DNA of 64,000 nt, from the NCBI GenBank assembly GCA_030765065.1, contig CM060986.1, forward strand, positions 79,601,573-79,665,572. The letters run 5' to 3'. Position 1 is the stretch's first letter. Every line of letters begins with the position of its first letter. A program made the translations under genes and the position numbers. Below the pieces are notes generated by a model. It saw only the letters and a list, made by a program, of their open reading frames with translations. It was not told where the DNA came from and made no database searches. Of this stretch, positions 2,080-64,000 are shown piece after piece. This stretch comes from Deroplatys truncata (taxonomy: Eukaryota > Arthropoda > Insecta > Mantodea > Mantidae).

Positions 2080-2830
2080 AATATGCGATATCCACATGAC
2101 TTCCTTTACCACCTCTTCTGTAAACTATTATTGCAAATGCTGTTCTTTATTTACTTTATGTTAATCGATACCAACGTTTGCAGAAATGGTTTCATTACAC
2201 ATTTTGTTGTAGATACAAGAGAGACAGAGGAGGCTGAAGCGATAGTTAAGTGTTTAAAAAGCATGTCAATGTACCTATGCTAGCTTTGAAATTCCATTCT
2301 TTGTATGACCACGAGAAACAAACGAATGGCTACTTAGCGCTTCAAAAAAGTAAAGCATAAGAAAATTTAAAAAAAATCCGAATACTTTGAAAATGGTTAA
2401 TGGCACAAACATTTTATACATTCTGTACTTTTAACGGTACCTGAATTTTCGTGTAGTAACTTATTCTCCCTCTTTTGATTAATCAGTTACACGAAAGTAT
2501 ACAAAATTCATTCAGAATAAAGAGGACTTCACAAAATTTAAGATCTAAATTTTATTATGTATGCAAATATATTAAAAATAATTCCAATAAAAATTGTTAA
2601 AACTATTTTTGAGTAAATAAAAATAGTCGTAACTAAAAACAAACGTCCACATAAAAGTAATTTAGGGTGGGAAGATTTTCTTGAAAACCTTCGGGTATCA
2701 TTTTTGGAAATGCCGAACTTTAACACAAAGTTTGGTGTTTAATTGACATTTAGTTTGAGTTATACTGTCCCCACACACTCACATCCACCCTCACCCGCGA
2801 GCGCGCGCTATCTACATATTTCTGTGTTTT
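2080..2830 (+). repeat. Repeat A, copy 1
   Basis: Diverged copy of the dispersed family described under 7477-8315. Shared blocks include the segment near 2190-2220 (TTTCATTACACATTTTGTTG), the ATTCAGAATAAAGAGGACTT block near 2510, GGGTGGGAAGATTTTCTTGA near 2668, and the C/G-rich simple stretch at 2766-2810 (CACACAC..GCGCGCGC). No coding capacity. Confidence 0.65.
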
Positions 2831-5800
2831 GGAGGGGATCTGGGTACATGACCACCTCCAATTTGTTGTAAGTGTTGAGGAAAGTAAAAATAAGTGTTTT
2901 CAAACTGTCATTGGCAGTTTAAATATTTGTGTCGCAGCATTCTACATGGTATGTTGTAAGCAGCACAAATTTATAAGATTAATGTGTGCCAAAAGTTAAA
3001 TTTAAAGTGAACAAATAGCAGAGGTTATGGGATAACCATTACTTTTATGATTCGTTTACTTTGAATAATCGCATATCTAGTTTTGTTTTCAGCAATAATC
3101 CTTATAATCTGCAATAACACTCTGATACCGTAATTATTGACTGGAAGATATACATAATTAGATAATGAAATAATATATAGAGAAATAATTGCAACAAATA
3201 ATTAATTTCCGTATATTAAATTAAGGTATAATTGAGTTGAAAATATTTTTCTAAGGAAAATGGTCATTAGCGAGTCATGTTAACCAAATTCATTAGTGAG
3301 AGCCGAAGTAGTGAACGCGTTAGTACAAAAATTTTTGGAATGCAGTTAAGGGGCAAATTCAGTAAGTTTTAACAGTCACGTATACCAGAATTCTGTAAAA
3401 GAGAAAGAATTAAATTCCGAGATTCGGGGAAGCACCCTATAGCAAAAGGTAGCAGATGCACACATAAGAATTGTAAGATTGGCTCCGCGCTAGAAGGAGA
3501 GTTGGTGGGGTAGTTCTAAAGTAGGCGGAGCTTAAATAATAAAAGAGCGTGTATTGCTAAACTTAGCGTCTTCCCTTTCTTTTTCGCGTACAACCTTAGG
3601 GGCTTAAAGTCTCGCACCTTGATCGGCAGTTCGCAGCGCCTAAGACCACTCTGGGTTGTCAGTTGCTTAGCGATAGCCACGAAGGGTTTTGCCGGTAAGA
3701 ATTTTAGTGTCTCACGGAAAGTTACGCTTCTACTTCTTTTATTGCGGAAACAGTTATTTCGGACTGTAAAATTGATACTGCAGAATTTAGCAGGTATAAT
3801 AGTTGAATTGTCATAGTTTCATTTGTAATCAGTTTCATTATTTATCTTCAAATTGTCGGTAACTCGCTTTAATAGCTCAAGTATTAGATCACACCAAAGT
3901 TTGAGTCACTTTAAACTGATGTTATTCTTTCACATACGCCCATACATATCCTGAGAGAAAGATCTCATAGCCAACCACTGTAGCAGCCGGTAACAGAAAC
4001 AACAGCAGATATTGGTGACACGGCCTTTCGTCGTCAAACTTAGCTCATGAGGCTGGAATCGGCTTAAACTCTCAAAAATAGTTTTCCTTCATTCAGAGAC
4101 TTGTTTGTGTTTACATACTTCCTGCTCATTTTAGTAAAGTACAAGCTTAGGAATCCCTGCTATAAATACCACTGGCGATTGTTTTCTTGGCGCGTTTTCT
4201 TTTAAACAAACCGGAAGGTGTCACCGAATACTTTTAGAATCTGAAAAACGGTTGCTTTTCAGAATATGTATCAGAACACTACCGTTTGTGTGTAAATAAA
4301 ACACGATTTGTAAGGTTTTATGTGAAATTTCCTTGTCTATTTTGTATTTTGACCTGGAAACTTTAAGATGGCACAAATGGTAAATAACAGGTTGTTAGAG
4401 ATTAGAGCAAACTATAATTGTTTATTCAAATTCGACGGACTTCTATAGGTATGCTAGTATTCAGCTGCAATTCAAACTTATTTCAGATTCCTTCGTTTTA
4501 TAACCTGTTTAAAGAAACAGTAAGGGAGAAAGTTGTTACTTACTCTCTTTCCTTATTCTGGGTGAAACAGCTGCTGCAGTATGACGTAATTTAGGAAAGA
4601 GAAAAGATATACACATCACTAACATTAAAGGGACAAAATTGTTAAACAATTACATTTTTGTTGTGTAGTCTTAATTGGAATTTCCTCTTTAATTCGGCAT
4701 ATTCTTGTTATCATTGTAGGCACGAAACGTATATCTTAAATACAGTTTTAAAATGGTATTGCATCTGCAGTATTGTACTGTGTATTTTGCAATGCTTCAA
4801 AGAAACAAAATCACAACTACACATTTTGGAGTAGGGTAGTAAAGTTTACCCCAACTTCTATAGAAGTTTTGCTCTCCAAATTGGTACTACTGTTAAGTAT
4901 GACAGTAAATGTGAGTTCTAGCCATGTGGTTTCTTGCTTTGCAAATATACGCAAGTTTGTAATTTCTATTTATTATTTTTTTTGCTTTGAACAGCTTTAT
5001 CTGTGAATGGATTTTCTCGTACAATTAAACCTTTTCTCAGAAACATTAAGATAGCTAACTTAAATTTTAGGATGATAAAGTTTACATTTAGGTACTTTGG
5101 TGTTAAGATTCTCGGTTATTTTTTTAAAAAAAATTGCTGATAAATGTTAATCGAAAGATGATATAACTGAGAAAATAATCCTATTTTTCTTAATAAACAA
5201 ATGATTGGTTAAAAAGTAGAGTAGTACTTAGAAGGTAAATTTCAGTCTGATATCTTAATTTTCGAGATAACATTGATAGTATAGGGCTTTTAATTACTCT
5301 TAAATATTCAATAACAATGATTCACTTGAATAATCTGAGGCACATAAAACCACTCCTAGAAGTAGAACTTCAAATCCTCAAAATCTTGGCGCTTTAACAG
5401 AAAGAGGGGCGTTAACACTGAAAATAAATAATACTCGTAAATGACCTCGTTTTTATCCTCAAGTTTGGTAGGCACGTTCTTGAGAACTGCACCTAAGGAG
5501 CCGCAGGTGACAGTTGCGTAAAGACAAAGCCCACAAATTTGTTGCCAAAATGTCAATGTCAACTAGTTTCATGTATAATTTGGTATTATGCAATTGGAAG
5601 TTCGCGGGAGGTTACCTGTTCTTGGCTTGACTTTCAAACACTATGCTCGAATTTTCAATTCAAGGCAGAGGTCGAACCAGGGCAGTAATTATCACTAGGA
5701 ACCGTTACTAGTGATGATGTTGCAATTACCTCCGTGCATTGAGAACTGGTTGTAGTGGAGACGGTTCAATCCTTAGGCGGCCATGGAATCGTTACGTCAC

Positions 5801-5939
5801 AGTATCTATATGCAATCGGTGTGAAATAATCGCGCACGTGGCCATCTGTTTCCAAGGTAACAAACATAGACAAACGATTCCGCAACTCGGCGCTTGTGAT
5901 TAGAGAACGGCAAGGAAAATGCATAGCTCGAAAATTGCT
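2831..5939. other. Gene-free AT-rich stretch
   Basis: No coding exon recognised. A slightly GC-richer island lies at about 3470-3720, with a donor-like GTAAGA at 3695-3700. It could be a promoter or 5' exon of a host gene or part of an old element, and I cannot decide. A small hairpin, ATCACTA..TACTAGTGAT, lies near 5690-5715. Confidence 0.35.
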
Positions 5940-6490
5940 CTTGTCGTATTATTGATACGTTCCCTAAACCCAAAAAAGCACTATTAGAAATAGGTCCGTG
6001 TGTGTGCGAACAGTATAACTCAAAAACGTAAACTCGGTTAAACACCAAACTTGATAATTATGTACAGTATCTTCCAAGAATGTGACACGAAGATTTGAGG
6101 AAATCCTCCAATCCCCAGAATACGTTTTTCGTTGAAAAATTGTCGTTATTTTCCTATTTCTCCCAAATGCCTCTAAAGATTTCTATTACAATACCACAAG
6201 TTTAAGATATTTGAAAGATTAATAGAAGAGTATCACTCACTCACTGTCGTTAAAGTCTGGAATTTACATATGTTAAAATATATATTTTGTGACAGTGATC
6301 ATTTTTGAGATATTCGTTTGTATTGTTTTGAAGTTTTCAATACTTTTTGAAGTGCTAAAACACAATTTTTTCGTTGTGGTATAATGCCAAGTGTATGTAA
6401 TTTCAAAGCCAGTATGTAGCGACCCGCTTTTCCCTGATATAAAAAATAAATGATAGTGAGTTGGGAGTGAATGTAACACATCACATTTTT
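5940..6490 (-). repeat. Repeat A, copy 2
   Basis: Inverted copy. The GTGTGTGTGCG simple stretch near 5998-6010 and the terminal block GTGAATGTAACACATCA near 6467-6483 are the reverse of the 3' and 5' ends of the family. Confidence 0.6.
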
Positions 6491-6937
6491 CTATATTTGA
6501 AAGTAATATATACAGATTTAGGAAATTACGTGTGTATAGCATTGGTTTAAAAGTAGGACAAATGTAAAATTCTAGTCATAGGAGTCGCTGAAAAATTGAG
6601 AGTTTCAGAATTTTCAATCCCTTATCTTTTACCACTTCTGTGCCCAAATTCGAAAAAATGAGAAAAAAGGATACTGAAAGAAAGCGTTTAGAACTTCCTT
6701 TATTGCTATATCTATCACTTAACTATATTCTAGGTAGGTTACCCACGATACATTTAACTAGAAAATGTCAAATGAAATAAAAGCGGAACAAAAGAAGCCC
6801 TTATTTTTAAATGTTACTTATAGATACAGCATTGTCATTGGATCTAGGAAAACTAAAGATGTAACAAGGAATATTTCTAAAATGACAAACTACAGAAAGA
6901 GCTATATTTTTGCATATTTCAATGAACTGTTTATTTT
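6491..6937. other. No gene seen
   Basis: AT-rich. A 75-codon open frame at 6765-6992 runs into the neighbouring repeat and has no recognisable domain. Confidence 0.35.
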
Positions 6938-7405
6938 TCGTGTAGCGAGTTTTATCTATGTTAATAGTTTGCTAGTTATACAAAATTCTTAAATAATGAA
7001 AAATAATTCACAAACAATTCACACAAAATTCAAAGGTATACGATTTTTAATTACGCAAGTTTGTATACGTATGTAAAGCATATACATTAATCAAGGTCAT
7101 TAGAGCTAGTTTTGAAAAAATAAAAGATAACTAAGAATTTAAGCTTGGAAAAATTTTCATGAAAATCTTTGTGTCGTATCTCTGCATGGTGCTGGAATTA
7201 AAAAGCAAATTTTGGTATTTATCCAACTTTTCATTTTTGAATTGTGCTGTTTGGAGAGGCGCGCTCGCGCCCGCGCCCACCCCACACCCCTACACATACA
7301 CACTTGATTTTACCTTAAACTGTTGGGTATAGGGTTTCAGGGCATGTATTTCCGATAAAATCATTGTCGAAGTTTTGGGTGGAATGCAATACATCCTTTG
7401 TCTAT
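6938..7405 (+). repeat. Repeat A, copy 3 (3' half)
   Basis: Matches the second half of the family, including TTTTTGAATTGTGCTGTTTG followed by a GC-rich simple stretch (7258-7290) and then a CA-rich run. It ends at GGTGGAATGCAATACATCC and lies directly upstream of copy 4 in the same orientation, so the two form a tandem pair. Confidence 0.65.
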
Positions 7406-7476
7406 CACAGGAAAGAGAGCACGGTGCTACCAGTATTGACTACTGCTACAATTCCTGGCACCTTTTTTTAAAACTC

Positions 7477-8315
7477 TGATGTGTTACACTCGCATGACTT
7501 TCTCTACTCTTGTACAAAATATTTTTACAAACGTTTATTCTCCATCTACTTCATGTTAATCGAGATATCGAGATGTTAATCTTATTGTTAATTTTCTTGT
7601 AAATGCAAGGGGAATTGGTAGGCTTTAAGCGATAGTCAAATATTTTAACAGCTGGTTGCAATGTGGAGTATTCCAATCTCTCTGCATTACCAGGACAAAA
7701 AAATATGAATAACGAATTCCCATTTTAGAAAGGTATTGGAAAATTTAAGGAAATAACAATCAATATCCCGAAAATGGTTCACTCAACAAAAACAATTTAT
7801 ATGACATAAATTGTGTATTTTAACGCGATCTACATTTTTTGTGCAGTAAAATTTTGTCTATCTCTTATGGTTTACCAGTTATGCAAAAGTCGTTCACAAT
7901 GAAAAATACTTTTGGAGATATTCCCAGAAAATTCGAGATATACATTTCATGTCGTGAAAATATCTTAAACATATGATATTTTAATCAAAATCGTTAGAGC
8001 CGTTTTTGAGAAAATTAAAATTTTGGAAAAATGTTCCATGTAAAGGTAATCTGGGGTGGGGATTTTCTTGAAAACCTTCGTGTCGCATCTCTGGAAGATA
8101 CTGAACCTAAATACCAAGTTTGGTGTTTATCCTACTGTTCGTTTCTGAGCTATGCTGTTTACAGACACAGAGACAGACAGACAGACAGACAGACACACAC
8201 GGACATGTTTCCAAAAATGCTTTTTTTGGATTCAGGGGGCCTAAAACATATATTTCCGGTGAAATTTCGGTATCGAATTTTCGGGTGGAATACAATACTT
8301 CCTCTACTACGTATA
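7477..8315 (+). repeat. Repeat A, copy 4 (near full length)
   Basis: This is the clearest copy, about 840 bp. It starts TCTGATGTGTTACACTCGCA and ends GGTGGAATACAATACTTCCT. Internal landmarks in order are CATCTACTTCATGTTAATCG, AGTCAAATATTTTAACAGCT, ACCAGTTATGCAAAAG, TTTTAATCAAAATCGTTAGA, AAAATGTTCCATGTAAAGGT, then the simple repeat at 8163-8200, then GGGGGCCTAAAACATATATT. Open frames over this region are accidental: reading is not conserved between copies and crosses the microsatellite. Confidence 0.8.
8163..8200. repeat. (ACAG)n / CA microsatellite
   Basis: ACAG tetranucleotide run followed by CACACAC. It sits at the position where other repeat A copies carry CA, CG or GT runs. Confidence 0.95.
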
Positions 8316-8422
8316 GTAATACTCTTTAACTCGTTGCCGTTTACATTCAGTATTGCTCGATTCTGTCTAGGGCTTTGTTTTCCAGCAGTGTTAGTTGTGC
8401 GTTAACAGTGATACAGATCGAT

Positions 8423-9481: not shown

Positions 9482-9825
9482 TGGAACAGTTCTGCATTTG
9501 TTACGTACCATTACTGCACTGTACACCGACAGATCAGATTCAACACACTGTGATAAAGGTGTATGCGTTTCGTCTGCGGGATGTTGCATTACTCTGTGTT
9601 GTGTGTTGTACGTTTTGGTTATTGCATATTACACAGGTTTCTTCACTTGCGAGGGCATTTTCACAGCGCAAGGGTGATTGGGATAACAAACCGAATAAAT
9701 AATAATTACAATATTACACTGCAACGAAACGCCGGAAACTATGAGTCCCTTATAACAAAATACTTGAAAGGTTCCCTGAACGGTCTCTGAAAATTTGTCA
9801 AGGAGTTCTGGTTCATCCTATATAG
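9482..9825 (+). other. 3' flank of the decayed transposase element
   Basis: Noncoding tail after the transposase stop. It ends around TTGTCAAGGAGTTCTGGTTC (about 9796-9815), which could be the 3' terminal inverted repeat, but I could not find the matching 5' repeat next to 8316-8422. The left end therefore seems lost or diverged. Confidence 0.35.
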
Positions 9826-9869
9826 ATGCAGAGAGTACAATTTCATTCACATTTTAAAACGAAATGTAA

Positions 9870-10125
9870 GCGTAACATTCACTACCGATATGGGTAGCCG
9901 AGATCGTTAAGGTACGGACTCGTGAACGGGAGGACTACGGTTCAAATGCCGCTAGGACCGTTCTCCCTGACTGACGTTTTTCCTTAAGTTTTTCCTCGGT
10001 CCTCATAATTGGCAAACATTTCCCTAAACTTAGGCCCAGAAGGTTTCCTTTCCAAATTTCCTTTTCCATTTAATATATCATTTTACTTCATCCATCATCA
10101 GTTTCCACTGCTTATGGTATGCAGA
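9870..10125 (+). mobile_element. tRNA-derived SINE, family 1
   Basis: The head from about 9890 resembles a tRNA with pol III promoter boxes. GGGTAGCCGAGATCGTTAAG is the A-box region and ACGGTTCAAATGCC is the B box. The body contains TTTTTCCTCGGTCCTCATAA and CTAAACTTAGGCCCAGAAGG. A second copy in reverse lies at 26560-26750 with the same head and body. It is noncoding and relies on a LINE for movement. Confidence 0.75.
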
Positions 10126-10343: not shown

Positions 10344-11603
10344 CGAGGGCAGTCTCAGAAGTACCCGACCTGACGTATATATAGCTGTTATTTAAAACAA
10401 ATGACTACAGTAGAAAGTACCACCCGTATAAAGCTTAAGTTTGACGATGCTACGTTGTTTAGTAATTGTTTGGCAGCCATTAATAGTGAACTCTCTCAGC
10501 GAATTTGCAAACATTGATAAAAGTGACCATCGTTATGTGATACAATACTTTCATTTGAACAACTAACTAATATTAAAACTGAGGTAGATTCCACTACTGG
10601 GGAGTCTGCTCCTTCGTTTACAACAGTAAAACATTGGGTGGCAGAGTTAAGCGAGACCGTACGAGCTGCCAAGACGAACATCGCAGTGGTCGACCAAATG
10701 AGGTAACCACGCCAGAAATTGTGAAGAAAATCCACAAAATGGTATTGGATGACCGTCGACTCAAAGTGCACGAGCTGGCAGACATGGTAGGCATTTAAAA
10801 AGTGCTGTACATCGCATACTAACTGAAAATTTAGACATGAGAAAGCTGTGCGCGTGTTGGGTGCTGCGTTTACTCACAATGGAACAAAAACAGCGTCGTG
10901 AGGATGTTTCAGTCGAGTGTTTGGTAATGTTTCGTTGCAATAAAGTCGAATTTTTGCGTCGATTCATAACCATGGATGAAACATGGGTCCATCACTTCAC
11001 ACAGGAGACGAAGGAACAGTCAAAGCAGTGGATTGAAAGGGAAGAATCAGCTCTAAAGTAGGCAAACGCAGTTTCATCTGTAGGAAAGGTCATGGCGTCA
11101 GTTTTTTGGGATGCGCTTGGGATATCTTCAAGAAGGAAAGCAATCAATGGCGAGTATTATGCAAACTTATTGCAGCATTTGAATGATGAAATCAAGCAAA
11201 AACGGCCGCATTTAGCGAAAAACAAAGTTCTGTTTCATCAAGACAATGCACCAGTTCACACATCCATTATCGCCATGGCCAAAATCAATGAGTTAAAGTT
11301 CGAATTGCTTCCTCATGCACCCTATTCGCCAGACTCAGTCCCCTCTGATTATTTTATGTTTCCAAAGTTGAAGAAATGGTTTGGTGGTAAAAGATTTGCC
11401 ATCAATGAAGAGCTGGAGTGTGCAGTTGATGGCTATTTTGCAGAACTCGACGGTTCTGACTATAAGCAGGGTATCGAAGCTATTTAACATCGCTGGGAAA
11501 AGTGTGTCGAGCTGTAAGGAGACTATGTAGAGAAATAAATATGTTTTTTTTACAAACTTTTGTGTTTTCTTTGTTAGGTCGGGTACTTCTGGGAAAGCCC
11601 TTG
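10344..11603 (+). mobile_element. Mariner element, near full length (1260 bp)
   Basis: Bounded by TA on both sides (10342-10343, 11604-11605). The left TIR starts CGAGGGCAGTCTCAGAAGTA and the right TIR, read inward, starts CAAGGGCTTTCCCAGAAGTA. They match over about 30 bp with a few differences. Size, TA target and a DD34D transposase identify Tc1/mariner, mariner branch. Confidence 0.92.
10513..11538 (+). pseudogene. Mariner transposase (DD34D), inactivated
   Basis: The enzyme family cuts and pastes the element at TA sites. The N-terminal HTH part (about 10513-10800) includes DSTTGESAPSFTTVKHW and SGRPNEV-like text. The catalytic part has TMDETWVHHF (first Asp, about 10969-10998), LFHQDNAPVHTS (second Asp, near 11240) and YSPDSVPSDYF. 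The Asp of SDYF lies 34 residues after the second Asp. The C-terminus ends in the usual GDYVEK form before TAA at 11536-11538. The start codon is lost (ATT at 10513), several frame changes and stops lie in the N-terminal half, and there is a stop at 11485-11487. The longest intact piece is 131 residues (11092-11487). Confidence 0.9.
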
Positions 11604-21638: not shown

Positions 21639-23084
21639 TTACTTCTGGTACCAAGCATTGCGATTTCGTCTGCCGAACCACGTGCTCTTAATCATATCAG
21701 CACCCTTTTCGCCGATCATGATAGCCGGTGCATTGGTGTTGCCTGAAGTAACGCTCGGCATGATAGAGGCGTCGATAACCCGGAGTCTTTCTACGCCGTA
21801 GACTCTTAGCTCAGGATCGACGACCGCACCAGGGTCTCCAGGTGGTCCCATACGACAACTACCAGCTTGGTGATTCTCCGGTCCCGTCTGACGTCTCACA
21901 GCACATTCCCAGTAAGCATCGCAACCGAAAGGCAGGTTTTCACAACCCGGTACTGGCGTTTCATCTAATTGGAAACCATACCGTTTTAAACTCGGGGTGC
22001 GCGTGAGGGCAATGCAGAATTTAATGCCATCAATAAGAGTGGCGACATCATCGGGATGGGTGAGGTACCTAGGCACGATAGCCGGGTGCTCTAGTGGGTC
22101 TGTATTACGCAGCTTGATGTAACCTCTGCTCTTTGGATGCAACACTGCGGGAATTAGGTTGATGGTTCTTTTGGCTTGAGTGTTGTTAGCATCAACGTGC
22201 TCGCCTACTTGGCCCGTCTTGGCGCAGTTGGCAAGATACCCACCAAAGAATAACTGTAGATCAGGATAATCTTCATTAGGATTCGAATAACGTGAGTGTA
22301 CGAAAGCTGTAACTTCTGATATACCAGTACCAGACATCAGACCGTCACGGAAGAGCAGGTACTCCATTGCAGTGGCCCAGTTCAAAGCCTGCGTGTTAGA
22401 ATCATTTATGAAGAAGTTAACAAAAAATGCTACGTGGTTATGAAGGTTTTTCCCCACACCGGGTAGGTCCTGAACAACGGGAACACCCATGGCCTTGAGG
22501 TCTTCTCTGGGCCCAATTCCTGAGAGTAGTAGTATCTGAGGAGAGTTTACAGCACCACCAGAGATGACAATCTCATTTCTTGCTAGAATGACTTCCTTTG
22601 TACCACTGTCTCCTCTTAAAATAACGACACCATACGCTTCCTTTGTAGTGTCGTTTACAAGAACCTTCGCCACTGTGGTGTTGAGCAGGATATGAAGGTT
22701 AGGGCGATTTTTAACGGGACGAAGGAAAGCCTTGGCCGTGCTGAGACGGGATCCGTTGCGAGTTGTTGTCTGGGCGATGGTAAAACCCGTGTGCAAGGCG
22801 CCATTGACATCTCTCACAGGATAACCCATCTCACGTCCTGCCTGCAAGATGGCGTGTGAGAGCGGTGGATGGTAAGGAAATTGCGTGACTGTGAGGTAAC
22901 CTCCCACGCTGTGGTATCCTTGATCCACCAGTTGCGGCTGGAGATTGTCCTCGGACTTGAGGAAGTAGGGCAGGACATCCTGGTAGCCCCAGCCGGTGTT
23001 CCCCATAGCAGCCCAGTCATTGTAATCGCGTTGAGCCCCTCGCATATACATCATGCCATTCAGCACGCTTGTACCGCCAAGCAC
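21639..23084 (-). CDS. Glucose dehydrogenase-like GMC oxidoreductase, 3'-terminal exon
   Basis: An FAD enzyme of the glucose-methanol-choline family that oxidises an alcohol or sugar and passes electrons to a quinone or oxygen. Insect members are often secreted and act in cuticle, immunity or reproduction. The exon gives 481 residues, about three quarters of the usual 600-630. Visible are [10 protein letters not shown] at residues 1-10, the GMC signature [16 protein letters not shown] at 176-191, [13 protein letters not shown] with probable catalytic His405, and [17 protein letters not shown] with Asn449 in the second active-site position. The frame is uninterrupted to TAA at 21639-21641. The first codon is GTG right after a splice acceptor (TTTTCCAG ending at 23085), matching the family order RGK-VLGG, so this is an internal exon start, not a translation start. 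The N-terminal GxGxxG FAD-binding exon is not visible in the window, so it probably lies beyond a long intron. The exact substrate is not deducible. Confidence 0.95.
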
Positions 23085-23094
23085 CTGGAAAAGA
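23085..23094 (-). promoter_or_regulatory. 3' splice site of the GMC terminal exon
   Basis: On the minus strand a pyrimidine-rich stretch ends in TTTTCCAG immediately before GTGCTTGGCGG. Use of this AG keeps the known GMC reading in phase 0. Confidence 0.85.
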
Positions 23095-23162
23095 CAATTA
23101 ATTTGTTATAGTAAAGCATGATCATCTCTGGTTAGTTTAGCATTTTAGAATTTCAAATAAAA

Positions 23163-24012
23163 TCTGATGCGTTACATTCACATGACATTCTCTACCCTCT
23201 ATCGCTTATTGGTGGGTATTCAAATTATACGAAAGCTTATTTTCTTGTCCCTTCATTTTAATCAAGATAAATCTTTCCGAAAATAGCTGCATTAAAACAT
23301 TCGTTATGGATACAACGCAATAGCGATAGTCAAATGTTTTAGAATTGGACGCTATATGGCGAGTTTAAAATTCCATACTCGTTCCATGACATCGCAAGAC
23401 ACAGCTGAAAATGGATAGGACTTTAAAAGGATGGCTAAGTATAGAACAATTCGAACCGTTAATAACGGATAGCTCGGAAATGGCTCATGTCACAAAAAGG
23501 GTTATTTGAAATAAACTGTGTTTCAAAGGTTGCTACATTCTTTTCTGTAGTACATTTTCGTCTGTCACTTAATGTTTACCAATTATACATGATTATACAA
23601 AATCCTTCCGAATGAAGAGGACTTCACAGGCTATTCCCAGAAAATTCAGGATATACATTTTATTTTTCATGTAAATGTGTTTAATACATGGCATTTTAAT
23701 AAAGATCTTTAGAGCATTTTATTAGAAAGTCAAAGTTTCGAAAAATGTTTCATGTAAAGCGACGTTTGGTGTTGGGGGATTTTCTTTAAAATTTTCGTAT
23801 CGCACATTTGGAAGGTACTGTATCTAAATAACAAGTTATCCCACCTTTCGTTATGCTGTTCACAGGCACACATACACACAGACTTTTTTTAAAGATGCTT
23901 TTTTGGTATCAGAGGCCTCAAAGCATGTATTTTTGTGAAATTTCGGTATCGAATTTTTGGATTGAATACAATACCTTCTCTACCTACTATGTGTGTCAGA
24001 GAAAGTAATAAA
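23163..24012 (+). repeat. Repeat A, copy 5 (full length, intronic)
   Basis: Starts TCTGATGCGTTACATTCACA and ends in a hairpin-like CTTCTCTACC..GAGAAAGTA (about 23975-24008). The internal simple stretch is ACACATACACACAG near 23866. It lies in what must be the intron upstream of the GMC terminal exon. Confidence 0.8.
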
Positions 24013-24264
24013 AATAGCGCACATCAAGTACTGCCGAAAGGGACTGAAATTTGAAGTAACTTTATAGTGATAAAGAAGGCTTACAAGTGTGTTGCAGCAA
24101 GTAATTCAGATAAAAAGAGGTTGAAAAAAATGTGGTTAACTCCAATTTTCAAACTCTTTATTTTTGTCTTGATTTATTTAAATTCCCTTTTATATGTACG
24201 TACTTTCGAAGTCAGAATAATGCATTTATGTGACTAACAGTCTTAAACACTGTTTTTCTCTCTC

Positions 24265-25080
24265 TGCAACAGATACTTGTAAGAGGAAGTATTGTATACC
24301 GCCAAAAAATATGATGTTGAGATTTCAGCGTAAATATACGTTCCGAGGTCCTCTGAATCCGCAAACAGAATTTTTAGAAATGAAATCCGCGCGCACGTAC
24401 GTGGATGTGCGTGTGCGTGTGTGTACAGCATACTTCTAAAACGAAACGTTCAATAGATACTAAGCTTGGTATTTATATTCAATTTGTTTCAAAGATAGAC
24501 ATGCATATTTTCAAGATAATTTCCCACTCCAAGCTACCCTGTACACGTAAAACGGTCGATATTTGTTTTTTCCAAGAATGTCTAAAGGTTTTGATTAAAA
24601 TATTTAAGATAAGCACATGAAAAATAAAATTAACATCTTGAATTGTTTTAGGTATAGACTGCGATGTCCTATTCATTCAGGAAGAATTTTGTATCATGGG
24701 TAAATCCAAAGTGATAGGCAAAAATATGTCAAACAAAAAATGCAGATCACTTTAAAATTAACAATTTATCCTAAATAAATGTTTTTCTAGATCGGCCATT
24801 TCCAATATATACGTTATTATTCCTATAATTTCTCAATAGTTTTAAAACTTGTGTAGTCGTATCGTTTTTCAACTACTCGTGGAAAGTGTATGGAGTGTTA
24901 AAGTCAGCACATAGCGACTCGCTTTCAAACATCTGACTATCGATTCGCTTCCTCTGTCCCAAAGAAAAATGTAATGAAACTATTTCTGCAAATATTTAAA
25001 TTAGCTTTCGTAAGAATAGTATGTAGAAGCTGTATAAAATAATGGCAGTGGGTAGAGAAACTCATGTGAATGTAGCATAT
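24265..25080 (-). repeat. Repeat A, copy 6
   Basis: Inverted relative to copy 5 and about 250 bp from it, tail to tail. Simple stretch GCGCGCACGTACG..GTGCGTGTGCGTGTGTGT at 24388-24424. The 5' end of the family is near 25060-25080. Confidence 0.75.
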
Positions 25081-25214
25081 CAATGTAAAAATAGTCACTG
25101 AGAAAAGCAGCCAGTCAAATCCTAATAAAATCAAAATAATTAAAATGAAAAATTAATTTTTATTATAATGTAATGTTTTTCTAGTTATTAAACTGTTTTA
25201 TATGATTTTGAAGT

Positions 25215-25440: not shown

Positions 25441-25865
25441 TATTCAAACTAGGTTATGCGGTATTTAGAAAACTCTTATTTTAAAGTATAAAAATAAGAC
25501 GTATTTCACGTGGTTATTTTTGTATCATTAAGTTAATAAGCCGGTAACTTTATAGCAGTTCTTCCTCGGCACAGAAACGAAAAGCCTTATATGTAACAGT
25601 ATCTCTACCCATTTACAATTATTTTCAGTTTACAAATGTTTGATAAGATTTTTTGTCCATTTCCTATTAGTAATAATAAACAGTTTCTACCGATACTGTA
25701 TTAACTATACATTATGTAATCTTTCGGTGGTAGATGATATTTCGTTAAATAGCACGCCGAAAGCTATAATGACAGCTTATATTTCCTTTGGGCTAATGAT
25801 ACAGAATTTATTCCAAATAGCCTGTCAAATTTTAGTTCTATCGTAATTTTTTTTGTAAACGTCTT
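25441..25865. other. No gene seen
   Basis: AT-rich, nothing recognisable. Confidence 0.4.
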
Positions 25866-25869
25866 ATAT

Positions 25870-26130
25870 CTTTTATGACATACAAGTTAGAAAATTCAGC
25901 GAGAATGAAGCGAATATTAGCGTTTATTTAAAATAAAATTTATATTTAGTATTTGATAATTTAATCAAAATCTTTGAAAGCGTTTTTAGAAAACTAAAAC
26001 GTAGGGAATATATTTCCACCTATAGGACTTCAGACGCGCTGTATAATGATGCTTTATTCATTCAGGGATCACAAAACATGAATTTCAACAGGAATCTATA
26101 TCTCCAGGCATTTACTGTACGTTAAATAAG
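25870..26130 (+). repeat. Repeat A, degraded 3' piece
   Basis: Blocks resembling GAATGAAG, TTTAATCAAAATCTTTGAAA and TTTATTCATTCAGGGATCACAA occur in family order. Weak and old. Confidence 0.45.
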
Positions 26131-26799: not shown

Positions 26800-27290
26800 G
26801 AGGACCCCCGAAATAGGGGCAGAGCATCGCACGCAAGTCATCCGGCCCCTTGTGCTTCTATCGTGACCCCTGGGAGGGAGGGATGAGGGGAGAGACCCGA
26901 AGGGAGACCAGATGCGGAAGACAACGGGCGCAACCATGCATGGGGTCTCTAGTGTTTCCAGATTGGTCCACCCATAGGCCCCGAGCCTGCGGGAGTCCTA
27001 AGGAGCTCCTGCCCGAAAGCATCCGGAGGCGGGTCCTAACTGAGCTGTCAGGAAGAAATAACCACAATCTACATAGCCCAGAGCCACCGCCCAGCCGCAA
27101 CGCGCCAAACACCGTCACTTGGTCCTACAACGCTGAAACAGATGAAACGATTTTCGTAGGAAAATGATGCGAAACCAGGGAAAACAACGAAAACCACATG
27201 GGTTAGAATGGGCGGTCGCCGGGGATCGAACCCGTGACCTCCCGAATGCGAATCATACACGTTACCACGGCGTCACCACGGCGGTGGTAG
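26800..27290 (-). mobile_element. Composite GC-rich SINE, family 2
   Basis: The minus-strand head near 27200-27290 reads GTGGTAACGTGTATGATTCG, CATTCGGGAGGTCACGGG, with B box GGGTTCGATCCCCGGCGAC. The body is much richer in G and C than its surroundings and resembles 56345-56945 in layout: tRNA head, then a pyrimidine-rich part, then a GC-rich tail ending GGAAACACTAGAGACCCC. Open frames in it are chance by-products of low stop-codon density. Confidence 0.65.
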
Positions 27291-36100: not shown

Positions 36101-36104
36101 AAAA

Positions 36105-38872: not shown

Positions 38873-38879
38873 TTTCTCT

Positions 38880-39080
38880 TGAGGTCATGCAAACATCGCA
38901 TATTGACCCGTTTTTTTTTTTTTACATATTTGACTATCATTTCAATCTCCTATTTTCCTTTCTACCTACAAAAATGTGCAGTTACATCGAATTAACATGA
39001 AAAAGGAAAATAAAGTTTTATAGGAATACTTTGTAGATATAAATATAAACGCTAGCGAGATTTTAAAGTAACGCACCAGA
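38880..39080 (-). repeat. Repeat A, partial copy 10
   Basis: A fragment with TTTGACTATC, CCTACAAAAATGTGCAGTTA and TCGAATTAACATGAAAAAGG in family order; third member of the head-to-tail run. Confidence 0.5.
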
Positions 39081-39769
39081 TTTTTGTCCTTATTTTCGTG
39101 AAGTACTTTTCCTCTGACAGATTATCTCTGATGTTAGATGCTATAATTAAAGTTGAAGGAATATATGTCACACGTTTTTAATCATTAGCGCACCAATTAA
39201 ATAGTCTTAAACATGGGATATATTGAAAATGTCCCTCCTTTAGCGGAAAATTATTTCTTTTCGCACTTATTTTCTAACTTGATGTCTGTTATGTATGCCA
39301 AAGAAGTTTCAACGCCCAACGCCGCTTGAAAGTACACAAGTTAAACCTAATAACGAATCCATTCATTACGCTCTGAAGTTTTCTTATATACCAGGCGAGT
39401 CTACCGCCCCTAAGTCTCTGCATCTATGCAACCCCCCAGCAAGGAGACACATCCTCTTTTGAAAACGAATAGGCAAGTTTTTCTGCGGCTACCTTTATTT
39501 GTGCATGTGCCTTCAATTACTAATTTTTCCCAAATACAAAGAAAGCTTTAAAAATAATAGGTTGGTGTAAATCTGAGCGTAGCAAGACCATGATATTTCT
39601 TTGTAGACGGTTTCGTCAAAGTTCGAGTGGATTACCACTGTGGTGAACACCAAGATCGATAGCTGAACGTTTTATTCATTCGTCACCTGAACGGGTGTAA
39701 CGTTACGGATATTACTTTAGTGTATTATTTCTGGCATATTTAAACTTTCTCTCAAATGCGAATTCGTTA
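39081..39769. other. No gene seen
   Basis: AT-rich with no recognisable repeat or exon. Confidence 0.4.
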
Positions 39770-40012
39770 TTCGTTTTTTTATGTCCTGGACATGCAAAGA
39801 AAATGCAATGCTCCACATAGCAACCAGCTCTTAAAAGATTTGACTACTGCTTAAAGCCTACCATATTCCCCTTGTACCTACAAGAAAATTAGCAATAAGA
39901 TAGTTTCTGCAAATGTCTATCTCGATTAACATGAAGTAGACGGAGAATAGGTGTTTGTAAAAATAGTTTATACAAGAATAAAGAAGGTCATGTGAGTGCA
40001 ACACATAAGATT
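39770..40012 (-). repeat. Repeat A, 5' fragment
   Basis: Contains the first 240 bp of the family reversed: TCTCGATTAACATGAAGTAG and GGTCATGTGAGTGCAACACA. Confidence 0.7.
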
Positions 40013-40311
40013 TTTTACATTTATGTAGAAAGAGATAGGGAAAACGAGGATGGGTGCTGGGGAGGCTAGGGTCAAAAGATGTTCAAGGCTGGTTCGGAGA
40101 CGAATTCAGCATTCATTGGAAATGGAGTAAACGCACATGCACGCTCGTTGCCTGGTGTGCTGCATGATGTATAGCTTAAGAGCTTTCTATAACAAATCAT
40201 TGTTAAATCATGAATTACCCATGAAATTTGCTATGCCAATAGCGGAATTACATATGAAATTATCAGAATACCAGTGTTAATCCACGAATTACCCAAGAAA
40301 TTACCATAAAA

Positions 40312-40465
40312 ACCTGAATTTCCCGCTAAATTACCATAAATACCCACGATACTACCTGAATTACCCACTAAACTACGCCAACCACATGTGATACTACCTA
40401 AATTATCTGCTAAATTACCGGAAATACCTGTGATAGTACCTGAATTACACCCGAAATCACCTCAA
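40312..40465 (+). repeat. 42-bp minisatellite
   Basis: Units start at 40312, 40354, 40396 and 40438 (partial) and each begins ACCT(G/A)AATTA or a close variant, with a middle C(T/A)AA(A/T)TAC. Spacing is exactly 42 bp. More degenerate GAATTACCCA-type units extend left to about 40210. Confidence 0.85.
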
Positions 40466-40469
40466 CTAT

Positions 40470-40901
40470 GCTGCACTGGACTCCATGGAAACTGTTCGCC
40501 TGCTGAATGCCGGATGGTGCTATCCCCTGAAGACGTGGACATTGTATATGCTGCAAATGGATCCTTCATTGCTATAGTGCTGCAGTTGATGGTTCTGGAA
40601 TTTTCTGACGACCACAAGGGACTCTTACTCAATAGCAAGTTGGAATTATTACTGATTCGACCCAAGGACCCTAAAGCAGCATTCTGGCACCTCAGGGAGA
40701 AGCGAATGCTAGTGTTAAATTTGCACGAATCCAGTGGTGAATGCCTGTAATTTGCCTTTCTGATGCTGAAAAAGTTGAAATCCTCAAGATGTCAAGTCAG
40801 ACCGGTCGTTACATCTCGCCTTTACGACCTTTCCTTTACATCTGCAATCTCAACCATCTGTGCCGCAAAGTAAATCATTCACCTGGAATGTGGCCACCAC
40901 T
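40470..40901 (+). pseudogene. Coding-like sequence inside the long-TIR element
   Basis: One frame is open through 40750, with AECRMVLSPEDVDIVYAANG and GLLLNSKLELLLIRPKDPKA, then a second frame from 40741 reads MPVICLSDAEKVEILKMSSQ up to the LTR. A short cysteine-rich reading lies on the far side of the LTR (41864-41948). The text looks protein-like and G/C-richer than its surroundings, but I do not recognise a family. It may be a captured host exon, part of an unknown transposon protein, or chance. Confidence 0.3.
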
Positions 40902-42259: not shown

Positions 42260-42620
42260 GATCTGTCTTGTATATATTGAATTTTCTGCGAATAACCTGC
42301 AAAGTCGTCTTCATTCTGAATGAATTTTGTGTACTTTTGTATAACTGATAAACCAAGAGAGATAGAAGAAAACTTACTAAAAGAATTGTGGATATCGTTA
42401 AATGCACCTTTATGCCTAACGTTTACTCAGAATTAAGCATTTCTGATGTATTCCTTTTCATTGATTTGAATTTTCAAATGGTTAAGTACTATGTCACCGT
42501 TCTTTTGTTTCTCGTGATATGCAAAGAATATGGAATTTCAAAGCCACCATGTAGCGACCCCTGTTTCAACATGTCTATGTTTCAGCCTCCTGTATTCATT
42601 TAGTATCACACGAAAAATGT
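42260..42620 (-). repeat. Repeat A, central fragment
   Basis: Matches the middle of the family in reverse: TGAATTTTCTGCGAATAACC, GTATAACTGATAAACC and GGAATTTCAAAGCCACCATG. Confidence 0.6.
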
Positions 42621-43016
42621 GCACTCATTTTGTGGACACATGTATATCATTTTAGCAGCTGCTCATCAAATATAAAAGGTCAGAAAGTTAGTTCAGGGAT
42701 CCTTTTATTAGCGTAAGAGGTTTTTCTACATTATACAGACCCAACGATTTGTGTTTCTTCCGAAGGAATTCATGTTAAGGACTTTCACACCTGGAAATAT
42801 CCCTCACCGGGTTTAAACTCCCATCTTGGTACATAGAGGCTTGTTCAATAACTTTACTCCACGGACTGAGATAAAAGAATCAGTAAGGGCTCGCGAATAT
42901 ACATTTTGAGTGTTGACAAAATGTTAGTCAGATTGCCCTGGAAAAATGAAATAGGATCTGCTGCATAATAGTTATTATTATGAACACATTTATATAAGTG
43001 CAGTAGCACAACAACA

Positions 43017-47889: not shown

Positions 47890-49227
47890 TGAACAGAAGA
47901 TGAGCTGAAGGTCGCTGTGGCAGCATATAGAAACGGCAACTATGGACTTAGTGGGTGTGTTTGTATATATGGAGTACCCAAAGCTACAATAAAGAGACAT
48001 GCTAAGAGTAAAAACACGTTCTCGAATGAAGTTAAATCATTCGGAAGACAATCAACTCGCAGACCAGCTCCTCTTATTAGAAGAGAGGTTTTTCGGATTT
48101 ACCATCAAGATGTTCTTAAACTTGCATTCGACATAGCAGAGAAATATGAGTTACTTCATTGTTTCAACAGAGAGAAGAAAATGGCAGAGAAAAAGTGGTT
48201 TTATTCATTTATCAGACAAAATCCACAGCTTTCACTACGTCAACCAGAAGGGACATCGATGGTCAGAGCTAAAGGGTTTAATAGAGATAATGTGAATCAA
48301 TTCTTCGACCTCCTAGAGAAAACTGTCGATGAGAAGAAAATTACAGCTAACACTATATTCAACGCCGACGAATCTGGATTTACAACGGTTCAAAAAAGAC
48401 AACAAAACCTCATTGCGCAAAAAGGCAAGCACCAAGTGAGCTCCATCACAAGCGGGGAGCGAGGGGTAAACACCACCGTTGTTTGTGCTGTCAATGCCGC
48501 TGGACACTTTATCTCACCTATGTTTATATTCAAGCGTAAGAGAAGGGAGCAAGAATTTGAAATTGGTGCCCACCAGGAAGCGTAGTTGACGTCTGACACT
48601 GGCTACGTGAATTCTGACTTATGTCGTGGCTCAAACACATAAAAATAAGTGAAATATAGCCAAGGACTCACCGGTGCTCCTGCTACTTGATGGTCACACA
48701 ACATACGTAGAAATCTAGAGGCTTTTAAGTACGGTCGTGGTAATGGTATTATCACGTTGCAGTTACCTGGACACACTACCCACAGACTGCAACCACTTGA
48801 TGTTTCGTTTTTGGCACCTCTTCAAATCTATTTCATTCAAGCCCAGATTAAGTGGTTGCGTGAAAACGTAGGTAAAAATATAACGCAGTTTCAGATATCT
48901 GGACTGTTGAACGAAGCCTATGGTCGAGCAGCAACAGTTGGAACAGCAGACAGTGCCTTCCGCTCAACAGGAATTTGCCCTGTGAATAGGAATGTGTTTT
49001 CAGATCATTTTTCATCAGCAGATTTCTTGAAAGTTGATGAAAGTTTCCTAGAGAAACCCACTTCTACCTCTTCAGAAGACATTTCACGTGATGACTGTAC
49101 GAAACCTACAAACAATTTCAAGAGGATTGTGAACAAGGTGTCACCCCTTCCAAATTCATACAAAAACTCTGCTATTCGAGGTAGGGGAAAAGCACAGAAG
49201 GCCATTGTAATCACTAGCAGCCCTTAG
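47890..49227 (+). pseudogene. Pogo/jerky-type transposase, broken
   Basis: Cuts and pastes pogo-class elements. TEDELKVAVAAYRNGNYGLS (about 47892-47955) is the N-terminal psq-type HTH, and WFYSFIRQNPQLSLRQPEGT the CENP-B-type HTH (residues 94-113 of the frame starting at 47917). FNADESGFTTVQ (about 48358-48393) holds the first catalytic Asp, LLLDGHTT (about 48685-48712) the second and HRLQPLDVSFLAPL (about 48778-48820) the third. A TGA just before TEDEL blocks the likely start. The span 48580-48756 is broken by frame changes and stops. Two intact pieces remain, 222 residues (47917-48585) and 156 residues (48757-49227). Confidence 0.85.
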
Positions 49228-49805: not shown

Positions 49806-51334
49806 TATACTTCTAAAATTTAAATTATACGCCTTTAAGAGATATCCAAAAAGCCTTACAAACCTGATGCAAGTGTAAAACACGTATATACGGTACGTAC
49901 GGTATACACGTACGTACGGTATATTTTGCTTCAATTAAATACATAATAAAGGCTGGGAGTAACAAAATATAAAAGTGGTCCAATATAGGCAACATTCCTC
50001 TACAGCATGTGAAGTCCATTTGCATAAATTTATAAGTTTTCTGCGGAAATTTACAATACACTGTGCCGAGAAAATGAAGAAAGGAAGAAAAGAAAGGAAC
50101 CTTTGTCCTTTTGCAGCTACCTATAAGAGAAACAAACGCCATTCTTTGCCCACTTAGCACTAAAGGCAATTGAAGCTATCAGTTACTCTCTCCAAATTAA
50201 ATACACATTTGCCGCTGGGTTTCACTTGTTTACACCATCAAAGTGAAGGCAGAAACGGAAGTTAATAACCATGAGAACCTGCTATGACATGGCGCTATGC
50301 ATTACCTTAAACAACAGCCTTTATAAGCAGCTGACGATGCTCTGTTTTGAATTATTACGTCGAATTACATAAGGTCCCCATGTATGTAACATTCGTGGGA
50401 GATCAGCGCTGTATGAAAATATGCTACAGCCATCTAGAGGTGTGAATGAGGCGAGATGACGAAATTAATTGTATTTTCCATCTATTGTAGAGCTACAACA
50501 ACCTAAAACACTGAGAGTTAAAGCATAAGTTTAATGCCAACGCTCTTTCTCATGAGTTGCGTCACTTCACGGAAGTAATTTATTTATAGAACAAGACCAG
50601 GAGGGTAGACTCGCTCCACCGGAAAGGGCTTCTATAATAAAGATATAACCTTTTTTTCAGATGGTTACACGGAATATATTGGGTTCTCATATTTCCGATG
50701 CAATAATAATCCTGAAATTTTGGTTAAATTATAATACTTCCATTGCCTACTATAGGTAAGTTGTAAAGTAAAAACACTTGAGAAAATGGCGTAATACATC
50801 ATACGAAAAGTTCCTATTTATAGGCCCAATCAATCAACGAAACTCTCTTTATGAACATGCTTTTATATATATTGCCGTATAGTCTAAGAATAGGAGTTTT
50901 CTAGCAGATTTTATAACAGTTTGCTACCTTACTTTGCTACCTACCTCCGAAACAACATAATTAGCGAAAAACCTATCACATGAATGCAATAACACAATCA
51001 GTCAAAAACAAAATGCCGGATATAAACAACTAAAGAAACGATAGGCTACAACTAATCAGAAACACGTCTTTATCCAAATGCTATACTGCCTTGCCACAAA
51101 ATAGAAATTAAACAAACATTTAACTTGCATTACATAGTATAGTTTTATGTGACATACATCCTTTGAAAGTCAGTTAATCCTACAAAACTTGTTAAGGACA
51201 CATATTTGTAATTTATCTGTATACTTTAAAATTCCTTCGTCGTGCTTTTAACCACGATGATGAACACTCTCTCCACAACTTACACTTATAAATTATCTTA
51301 AAACATCCACGTCAGATGCCTCAGTTCCCCTTAG
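49806..51334. other. Gene-free stretch
   Basis: No exon recognised. A short tandem CGTACGTACGGTATA-type motif occurs twice at 49880-49924. Confidence 0.4.
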
Positions 51335-57850: not shown

Positions 57851-59523
57851 CCGCCCCCTTAAGCTGCTAGTGAACTTGCGTTTCTTTATAATATAGCGGT
57901 ATGTAGGAAGCAGGTTTTCCTTTAAGTACCTCAGCCTAAAAGACTTTTTGCGCACTGCAATTTTTCTGAACTGTGGGTGGAAAGGTTTGATAAATATTGA
58001 TAAAATTCCCACACTGATTGTGATTTAAAGTGATGGAACTGAGCGCTTTTAGTGCAACCTGGCTGTCAGAGTTTATAGGAATATATTTCGCTACAATGCT
58101 CTTTTCCCAGTATAGGCGTGCACTTTTAAGTATAGCAAGTATCTCCGCCTGAAGGACAGAAGCGAATCTTCCTAGGTTTATGTTACAGCACTTTCCCGTT
58201 GATTCGCAATAAACACCTGCACCAGTTTTCCCATGTATGTGTGAACCACCAGTATATATTACTGAAAGGTTGTGATAATGAAATTATTTCTGGTATGAAA
58301 TCAGATTTCATTGATAATGCACAATCTTCCCTTTTGTCGAGGGTTTAGGAGTGGCCTGCTTTATAGCGGTTCTCTCTCTCCCCCCCCCCCCCACATTCAT
58401 ACCTGGATGGCTCTGTATGCTGTAAGTCTAGCTTCATTTTGAATACGTAGTTTTAGCGGAGTAAGACCCAGTTAAGTTTACAAAATAATAGGTATTGCGT
58501 TTGTTTACAAGGAGCAACCATCGCTTGACGATGCGTACACGAAAATGGCCTTTCGGTTCGGTGGTGCTAGAGAGGAATATGAGCATAAACATCGAAAACC
58601 CAGAGGTGAACTCCATATGAAGTATTTAAAGGCAAACTTTGGAAAATTGGAGGCGGGAGAGATACTTTTCCAATATAAATTATATATTTATACTTGTTAT
58701 ATCTAATTAATGAAAAACGTCTAAATGATTGGGGGCAATTTCAGAAAACGTTCAAAGCCTACTGAATCATAAATTGTTTCCAAATTTAATTCGACCCAGT
58801 TTTCACCTGTAGCTCAATCTAATTTGCTCAATACAATAAGAAATGATGCAACAACAAGCATGGACGGTTCCTTTAGTGGGAGACTAACATATTAAGAAAC
58901 ATACTTTACCAAAACCCAAAATGAACTCGTAGAGGAATTTAATTTCTAAATTTTCAAATATCATATTTATTGGATTGAATATTAGTTATATTTATAGATT
59001 TTGTTTAATTAATTTCATCCCGAAGACGAAGATTATTAATTAATAAAGGTTTATTAAATTTAATACCAATGAAACATACTTTACCAAAGACCAAAATGTA
59101 GTCATAGAGGAATTTAATTTCTAAATTTTCAAATATCATAAGTAATCCACGGATTATCCTTTTGACGCAAAGATTAATTAAAATTATGAGAAAGCTTATG
59201 AAATGGTTTATTAAATAAAAACGTCCTTTAAATGTAATATTTAAATAGTTTGATTACTTAATTTTATTAAGTTATTTTATAAATGGAGGTTGGTGATTAA
59301 TACAGATTTATTATTTTTTGCATAATTAATATTTTTAATTAGTATTGATTTGTTTTGTTGAAGAATAAGTTATGTATTTGGATATGATTGTTTATCGCAT
59401 GGTGTTCCTCATTGTTTGAGAGGTTATTTCTTGGTTCATAAGGTATTTAATACAAATGTAAAGAGGCGGTTACGGATTTTGGGCTAAATGCCTATTTTTA
59501 GGTGTACGAATAAACTAAGAATA
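57851..59523. other. Gene-free stretch
   Basis: No exon recognised. A run of 12 C lies at about 58381-58392. 58910-58990 and 59070-59150 share an 80-bp block (CATACTTTACCAAA..CAAAATG..GAGGAATTTAATTTCTAAAT), a local direct repeat. Confidence 0.45.
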
Positions 59524-62559: not shown

Positions 62560-63200
62560 ATCACTTGCCAAGACACTCTTGTAGATAGAGGAAGAGATGT
62601 ATTCCACTCAAAAATTCGATAACCAAATTTCACTGTAAGTACATGTTTTGAGGTTCCCTGACCCCCTAAAGGTTTGTACACATGTGTGTATACATGTATC
62701 TGTCTCTGTGAATCACATGACTTAAAAACAAAGTCGAGTAATGTTTTCAATCCAGTATTTTCAAAGCATGCGATACAAAAATGTTCACTAAATTTTTCCT
62801 ACCCTAAGCCACCCTTTGTAGTGAAAATTCGTTCATTTTTATTTTCTCGATAATTTTCAAATATTGACAGGGACAATAAAATACACGGTGGATTTTCTGG
62901 AAATAAACCACGAAGACCTGTCCATTCTGATTAATTGTTGTATAATTGCATTTGGGAACTGTAAAAGCTAAACAATAACTTACTATGGAGAAGATGCAGA
63001 GCTCGTAAACACAAAAATAATGCAAAATAATGTTTTGCAATAACTATTTCCGACATGTTCGTTAGGTTGGTTTGAATTTTACAATACTTTACTCTTTTTA
63101 AGTCTTTAGTTACCATTCTTTTGTTCCTCGTGGTACTAAAAAGTAAAGCCAACATTAGCCATCTATATTTAAGAATTTTGTTAATCGCTTAGATTTCCTG
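62560..63200 (-). repeat. Repeat A, copy 11
   Basis: Begins near GTAGATAGAGGAAGAGATGT, with the CACATGTGTGTATACATGTA simple stretch at about 62679-62700, then AGCCACCCTTTGTAGTG and TTTTCTCGATAATTTTCAAA. Confidence 0.65.
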
Positions 63201-63302
63201 CATTCTAAGAGCGAGTGCATCATTTAATGAAAATACTTGAACATTTGCAGTTCTCTCTCTTTCGTCTTCTTCTTTCCATCGCAAAACTTTTTATCACGAA
63301 TA

Positions 63303-64000
63303 AAAATCTGCTGTGTTGCACTCAAATGATTTTCTCTACTCTTGTACAACTATTTTTACAAACGCTTATTCTCCATCTACTCCATGTTAATCGAGATATC
63401 GCTAATGTCTTATTGCTAATTTTCTTTTAGGTACAAGAGGAATATGATAGGCTTTAAGCGATTGTTAAATCTTTTGGGAGCTGGTTGCTATGTGGAAAAT
63501 TGCATTCTCTTTGCATGCCCAGGACAAAACAAGAAAGAAAAAAAAGTAATAACTAATTCCCAATTGAGGAATAATATAAGTATTGGAAAATTTAAACAAA
63601 TAATTGAAACAAATGGCAAGGAATATCTCGGAAATGATTCACTTGGCAAAAAGAAATGTATGTACATAAGTTGTGTGTTTAACGAGATCTACATTTTTTG
63701 TGTACTAAAAGTTTGTCTATCTCTTAAGGCTTTCCAGTTATTCAAAAGTTATTCAGAATGAAGAAGACTTTTGGGGGCATTCTCCGAAAATTTATTATAT
63801 ACATTTCATTTGCCATAAAATATTTTAAGCATACGTTATTTTAATCAAAATCGTTAGCCATTTTTGAGAAAACCAAAATTTTCGAAAAATGTTCCATGTA
63901 AAGGTTAGTCTGGGGCGGATGAAAATCTTCGTGTCGTATCTTTGAAAGATCCTGAACGTAAATACCAAGTTTAATATTTACCCGAATTTTCGTTTTTGAA
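63303..64000 (+). repeat. Repeat A, copy 12, cut by the window end
   Basis: Starts TCTGCTGTGTTGCACTCAAA, then CATCTACTCCATGTTAATCG, TTTTAATCAAAATCGTTAGC and AAAATGTTCCATGTAAAGGT. It stands head to head with copy 11. Confidence 0.75.

Follow-up and report, generated by a model that had tools for sequence, protein, structure and literature searches.

An old repeat family of the mantis Deroplatys truncata with the probable build of non-autonomous Helentron-like transposons

A 64,000-base stretch of the genome of the mantis Deroplatys truncata (contig CM060986.1 of assembly GCA_030765065.1, positions 79,601,573 to 79,665,572), referred to here in its whole length as the window, holds many copies of a non-coding repeat, named repeat A, which is probably an old family of non-autonomous Helentron-like rolling-circle transposons of the DINE/HINE type. 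Going by its sequence, the most likely mode of action of repeat A is that of a non-autonomous Helentron, with formal membership awaiting an autonomous partner. Repeat A adds a family to the DINE/HINE kind, which is already familiar, and its general interest is therefore moderate to low.

The copies were defined by a blastn self-comparison and an iterated nhmmer profile search of both strands of the window, which together gave 16 pieces lying on both strands and numbered here c1 to c16. One copy was interrupted and is represented by two of them, c9 and c11, so that the 16 pieces amount to 15 insertions. They cover 8,954 of the 64,000 bases (14.0%); the original prediction was of about 14 copies in both orientations making up about one eighth of the window. 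The three full copies named at that time (7477-8315, 23163-24012 and 37999-38872) were all recovered, as c4, c5 and c10, and a fourth full-length copy that was missing from that list, c6, was found at 24250-25082. The length of a complete element is about 0.83-0.87 kb. The last round of nhmmer returned 22 rows, four of which, with E values of 0.13-0.87, were not taken as separate copies (2123-2229, 32168-32203, 36166-36217 and 6444-6490, the last of which lies within c2 and is included in its coverage), and two pieces, c7 and c14, are weak and less certain copies that fell below the inclusion threshold of the first round and entered in later ones. In that last round the real pieces scored 32-737 bits, and the same profile applied to ten dinucleotide-shuffled windows and to the reversed window gave three matches, the best of them at 1.7 bits. 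With c7 and c14 left out and c9 and c11 joined (as c9_11), 77 of the 78 pairs among the 13 sequences overlapped enough to be compared, and their identities ranged from 51 to 83%, the tightest groups being c4, c12 and c16 (80-83%) and c5, c8 and c10 (75-80%). Judged from these sequences, the copies are old. A search of Rfam at gathering scores gave no match, and pattern scans for relatives in viral and prokaryote collections gave 0 matches, which says little about insect repeats. As had been predicted, no coding frame was recognised in repeat A; two stop-to-stop frames of at least 110 amino acids overlap copies (8019-8405 and 63420-63761), neither with a Pfam match at 0.001.

The orientation of the family was set by aligning the copies and reading their borders. 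For elements that have no coding frame the labels 5' and 3' are arbitrary, as was pointed out by the authors working on DINE-1 (PMC2374699), and in the published descriptions the 5' end is the one with a subterminal repeat and an adjacent inverted copy, followed by a GTCY microsatellite, and the other end bears another subterminal repeat with a small hairpin after it (PMC2374699, PMC4067079, PMC7492417). Repeat A runs from a T-run into a 5' subterminal repeat, ACTTTCTCTACC, a nearby inverted copy of it, GGTAGAGGAA, a stretch rich in GT or GTCT and a variable centre, and then, on the 3' side, into a 3' subterminal repeat, GGTAGAGAAAGT, a small putative hairpin, the ending CATCAGA and another T-run. 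Since these parts fit the published DINE-1/HINE order in one direction and not in the other, the correct orientation is, on the order of the parts, opposite to the earlier one. Several features of the original prediction take on another meaning in this direction. The motif TCTGATG(T/C)G(T/A)TAC, proposed as the start, was found, in the first copy two bases earlier than 7477, but it represents the 3' end, CATCAGA with its T-run, as read on the complementary strand. Likewise, both of the named hairpins were found (the second ends at 38034, one base past the figure given), but what had been taken for a 3' hairpin is the 5' subterminal repeat together with its inverted copy. One of the head-to-tail runs proves to be c10 nested in another copy of its own family, and another, c4 followed by c3 on the minus strand, is made of two copies about 45 bp apart. 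The class named then, a non-autonomous Helentron of the DINE/HINE type, is still the best fit, but the reasons given for it, a TC start, a 3' hairpin and head-to-tail runs, need replacing, and PMC4067079 counts a 5'-TC among the marks of canonical Helitrons. Stronger grounds are offered by the subterminal inverted repeats, the inverted copy at the 5' end, the GT- or GTCT-rich stretch on the 5' side, the T-rich ends and a nested insertion in which nothing is seen to be duplicated once the flanks are joined.

The subterminal repeats are best seen in the consensus, where the two ends show complementarity over 11 of 12 bases, a match equalled in 18 of 2000 shuffles. The 5' consensus was built from five (c5, c6, c9, c10 and c14) of nine aligned rows, those that by eye had kept the end, and its repeat and the inverted copy next to it agree at 9 of 10 bases (28 of 2000 shuffles were as good). 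This inverted copy is clear in c9 and c10, and in c9 the 5' arm folds into a long stem of -8.9 kcal/mol. Among single copies the match between the subterminal repeats is convincing in c10, with ACTTTCTCTACC at 38001-38012 on the plus strand and the 3' repeat at 38834-38845 on the minus strand complementary to it at 11/12 bases (6 of 500 shuffles); c5 is a borderline case (10/12; 26 of 500). Over the window, ACTTTCTCTACC occurs 27 times with up to two mismatches, set against a mean of 4.94 in shuffled sequence, and none of 100 shuffles reached 27.

Inward of the 5' repeats, six of nine copies (c3, c4, c5, c6, c10 and c15) have their 30-base block densest in GT, CT and GC steps at a distance of 111-146 bases from the start. 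A clean GTCT run, (GTCT)n, is present only in c4, where Tandem Repeats Finder also reported it, at 8161-8199; the corresponding block is GT- or GC-rich in the other copies, and in c3 the dense block is GC-rich with a GT-rich run immediately before it. At the other end, the 3' consensus forms a stem of 5 bp (-2.3 kcal/mol), and c10 has a stem of 6 bp (-4.2 kcal/mol), ATGTGA-ATATA-TCACAT, at 38847-38863 on the plus strand. By eye, a run of at least four Ts stands within one base of the CATCAGA-like end in eight of ten copies, the exceptions being c10 and c6.

The likely target of repeat A can be looked at in a copy that landed in its own kind. The full-length c10 (37999-38869, plus strand, its ends uncertain by about 2 bases) sits inside another copy, made up of c9 and c11, and provides a natural test of the empty site for an element that, in T-rich DNA, has boundaries difficult to locate. 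When the flanks were joined at 37998/38870, they aligned across the junction with c1, c13, c15 and c10; c12 and c5 were also compared with them and were uninformative. Compared with the empty relatives nothing was duplicated at this insertion, because they carry one to three bases more there, not fewer. The breakpoint lies in a T-rich site and is ambiguous by about 2 bases: it can be put at ATT^CTTTTT, at AT^TACTTTTT if the host had one A more, or at A^TACTTTTT if one host base was substituted. The T-run hides the exact position, and a CCA^T placement is possible with one host substitution. Ten polymorphic insertions of DINE-1 described in D. yakuba were all within the TT of WTT, and in eight cases the element followed the second base of WTTTT (PMC2374699), a target that the placement AT^TACTTTTT matches.

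A number of observations weigh against the assignment to the non-autonomous Helentrons. The ACTTTCTCTACC-like sites that lie outside the copies (14 of the 27, with 13 inside; one of the outside sites is 13 bases beyond c8) also exceed expectation, so that the excess is not restricted to the repeat A family. In c4, c6 and c9_11 the subterminal match within the single copy is mostly eroded and no better than in shuffles, although a weaker signal copy by copy is what might be expected at the identities found within the family. In three of the nine copies (c1, c2 and c9) the densest GT/CT/GC block lies elsewhere; c1 and c2 are without roughly the first 86-98 positions of the model, and at the corresponding position of the alignment both are rich in GT. 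The 5-bp consensus stem is below the 7-11 nt described for DINE-1, and within the 5-10 bp of mite HINEs. No covariation was found for the 3' hairpin over ten copies, in which no pair had changed on both sides, and its cells were paired in 70% of cases versus 72.4% in shuffles, so that sequence conservation alone speaks for it; a simple 3' stem folds in three of the ten copies (c10, c12 and c1). No autonomous partner came to light in the window: six-frame regular expressions found no Helentron Rep motif there, a search by which a decayed gene could be missed, and the Helicase/Rep expressions gave two short, chance-like matches only. Lastly, when the borders of five elements (c4, c5, c6, c10 and c9_11) were compared for identities while the ends were allowed to slide, c10 showed an identity of 6 bases, TACTTT, with 13 of 500 shuffles as long, and c4 one of 5 bases, GAGTT, with 42 of 500 shuffles as long and an uncertain 5' end; the identity in c6 was 3 bases (248 of 500).

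These border identities bring up a cut-and-paste origin, in which repeat A would be a miniature inverted-repeat transposable element (MITE) with its subterminal repeats as degenerate inverted ends and a short target duplication, either TT or up to 5-6 bases, and DINE-1 itself was formerly read in this way, a TT duplication being hard to separate from a T-rich target (PMC2374699). Yet terminal inverted repeats are absent, as the original prediction had it, the first and last 15 bases matching at 3-6 positions in the five elements, and neither c5 nor c9_11 has a border identity of at least 3 bases. The joined flanks of c10 are no longer than the empty relatives, and the microsatellite and the inverted copy at one end are asymmetric features. 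The TACTTT of c10 has a simpler account as the element's own ACTTTC start meeting similar host sequence, since the host relatives hold the target once and other copies hold the ACTTT start. A MITE is held to be unlikely, and the earlier claim that target duplications are lacking is borne out in the nested c10 compared with its empty relatives, but is qualified by the short border identities of c10 and c4.

The asymmetric ends, the high copy number and the many partial copies would also suit a short interspersed nuclear element (SINE) or a 5'-truncated long interspersed nuclear element (LINE) moved by reverse transcription. This is very improbable: both ends are fixed in several copies, pieces may be without the one end or the other, neither a poly(A) nor a simple tail was seen by eye at one end, the A-box and B-box patterns were each present in one of five elements with both strands scanned, and nothing is duplicated in the nested case. 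A canonical Helitron, with 5' TC, 3' CTRR and insertion at A^T, has in its favour that the reverse strand starts with TC, that the T-run at c10 permits CCA^T with one host substitution, and that TC/CTAG ends are reported for the moth element Hel-2, along with subterminal repeats and a (CTGT)n microsatellite (PMC4344730). By eye, however, the earlier orientation gives no CTRR at the other end, and the reversed one has a T-run with ACTTTC at its 5' end and CAGA at its 3' end; a canonical Helitron is held to be very unlikely. Within the Helentron class itself, a more far-reaching proposal would have repeat A as an undescribed, lineage-specific family that dominates the genome, with more than one tenth of its DNA, and re-inserts preferentially in the T-rich centre of its own copies to give nested runs. 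One nested case was seen, and the proposal is considered unlikely.

As a non-autonomous Helentron, repeat A would depend on a Rep/helicase enzyme of the Helentron type, supplied in trans, which would nick one strand. The element would then be peeled off as single-stranded DNA from the end that carries the subterminal repeat and its hairpin, serving as the 5' start mark, until the small 3' hairpin, as the stop mark, brings the peeling to a halt, and the freed strand would be joined into a T-rich target. With the source copy remaining in place the number of copies would increase, and later decay would have eroded the ends of the elements. What the copies themselves display are defined ends in T-rich DNA and an asymmetry between the two ends.

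Among known systems, DINE-1/INE-1 of Drosophila, as described in PMC2374699 and PMC4067079, resembles repeat A in having 12-13-base subterminal inverted repeats, the 5' one accompanied by an inverted copy and followed on that side by a microsatellite of the GTCY type, and then a variable centre; both lack a coding frame and insert into T-rich DNA, and the hairpin that DINE-1 has a few bases past its 3' subterminal repeat has a putative counterpart in repeat A. The subterminal repeat given for DINE-1 is of the ATACCCGTTACTC type and differs from ACTTTCTCTACC, and repeat A has a shorter 3' stem, no central tandem repeats that were seen and a far greater divergence. The Cg_HINE elements of the Pacific oyster are described with a subterminal inverted repeat of 11-12 bp, an inverted copy of 7-12 bp after a short spacer, a GTCY-like microsatellite, a 3' subterminal inverted repeat, a palindrome and T-rich sites, all in the same order as in repeat A, but with satellite-like tandem repeats in the centre, of which none was seen here (PMC7492417). 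The HINE of the mite Metaseiulus is likewise non-coding and T-flanked, with subterminal repeats and a 3' palindrome of 5-10 bp; its subterminal repeats are reported as palindromic, whereas repeat A has an adjacent inverted copy like that of DINE-1 (PMC4067079). The lepidopteran Hel-2, according to PMC4344730, also has a 5' inverted repeat, subterminal repeats, (CTGT)n after the 5' one and a 3' hairpin, but its 5' TC, 3' CTAG and A/T flanks differ from the ends of repeat A. An arthropod survey reports that in most species the "unclassified" bin accounted for the largest share of repeats (PMC6327564), and repeats like repeat A can end up there. The correct reading direction supplies the likely class, the ends and the target, so that an autonomous partner can be sought directly.

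Along the window, the copies are in various states of preservation. On the minus strand, c1 (2073-2851) covers model positions 87-895 and has kept its 3' end, with a remnant of the 5' end (TTTTTACTTTCC..) seen by eye just upstream. The plus-strand c2 (5959-6490) has an internal deletion and consists of the pieces 5959-6227, 6268-6431 and 6444-6490. Both c3 (6846-7424), which holds the 5' two thirds (model 1-596) and lies beyond the 3' end of c4, and c4 (7470-8315), with an eroded 5' terminus, are on the minus strand, as is the full-length c5 (23159-24008); the full-length c6 is on the plus strand. Two further pieces of the minus strand are c7 (25791-26106), a weak fragment with an E value of 0.0015 in round one that reached 1e-26 only after the profile had been rebuilt with relatives, and c8 (36101-36693), which has an intact 3' end but has lost its 5' part together with the microsatellite, and just upstream of which, by eye, lies what is left of the inverted copy. 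The interrupted host copy consists, on the plus strand, of its 5' half, c9 (37409-37998, with the 5' subterminal repeat at 37410-37421 and the inverted copy at 37431-37442), and its 3' part, c11 (38870-39084). Downstream, also on the plus strand, are c12 (39721-40015), a 3' third, c13 (42269-42623), a central fragment, and c15 (62572-63145), the 5' two thirds of an element. On the minus strand c14 (50689-50773) is a 5' end only, with an E value of 0.0062 in round one, and c16 (63302-64000) is cut by the end of the window. An autonomous element reaching from the 5' end of c14 to the 3'-like match at 32168-32203 was considered and rejected on account of the weakness of this 3'-like match (E 0.16 in the final round).

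All 21 stop-to-stop open reading frames of at least 110 amino acids in the window were compared with Pfam, and the matches were to mariner, Tc1, HTH_psq and GMC families, plus one DJR-like match below threshold. A long open frame for a GMC oxidoreductase (PF00732, PF05199) lies at 21639-23105 on the minus strand, and c5, 53 bases upstream of the open end of this frame, is probably intronic. Remains of other transposons are a mariner-type transposase fragment at 11062-11487 (PF01359) and a Tc1/Tc3-type one at 30293-30691 (PF01498), both on the plus strand, along with two plus-strand open frames at 47893-49227 that resemble a pogo/Tigger-type transposase, the first matching HTH_psq at the cut-off and the second without a match, the rest of the likeness being by eye. 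An open frame at 57936-58283 on the minus strand, with no Pfam match at 0.001, recalls by eye the RNase H of LINEs. Also by eye, tRNA-like stretches at about 29616-29660, near 27230-27290 and at 9800-9900 (e.g., GGTTCGATTC, which is B-box-like) resemble tRNA-derived SINEs; ARAGORN reported no tRNA. Seven of the 14 ACTTTCTCTACC-like sites outside the copies were read (29616, 31753, 27286, 25598, 57730, 12469 and 9875), some of them in tRNA-like sequence; by eye none of the seven has the CATCAGA ending, and no explanation for them was found. A short tandem array at 40286-40448, with periods of 21, 30 and 42 bases, lies partly within the open frame 40340-40750, the one with the sub-threshold DJR-like match.

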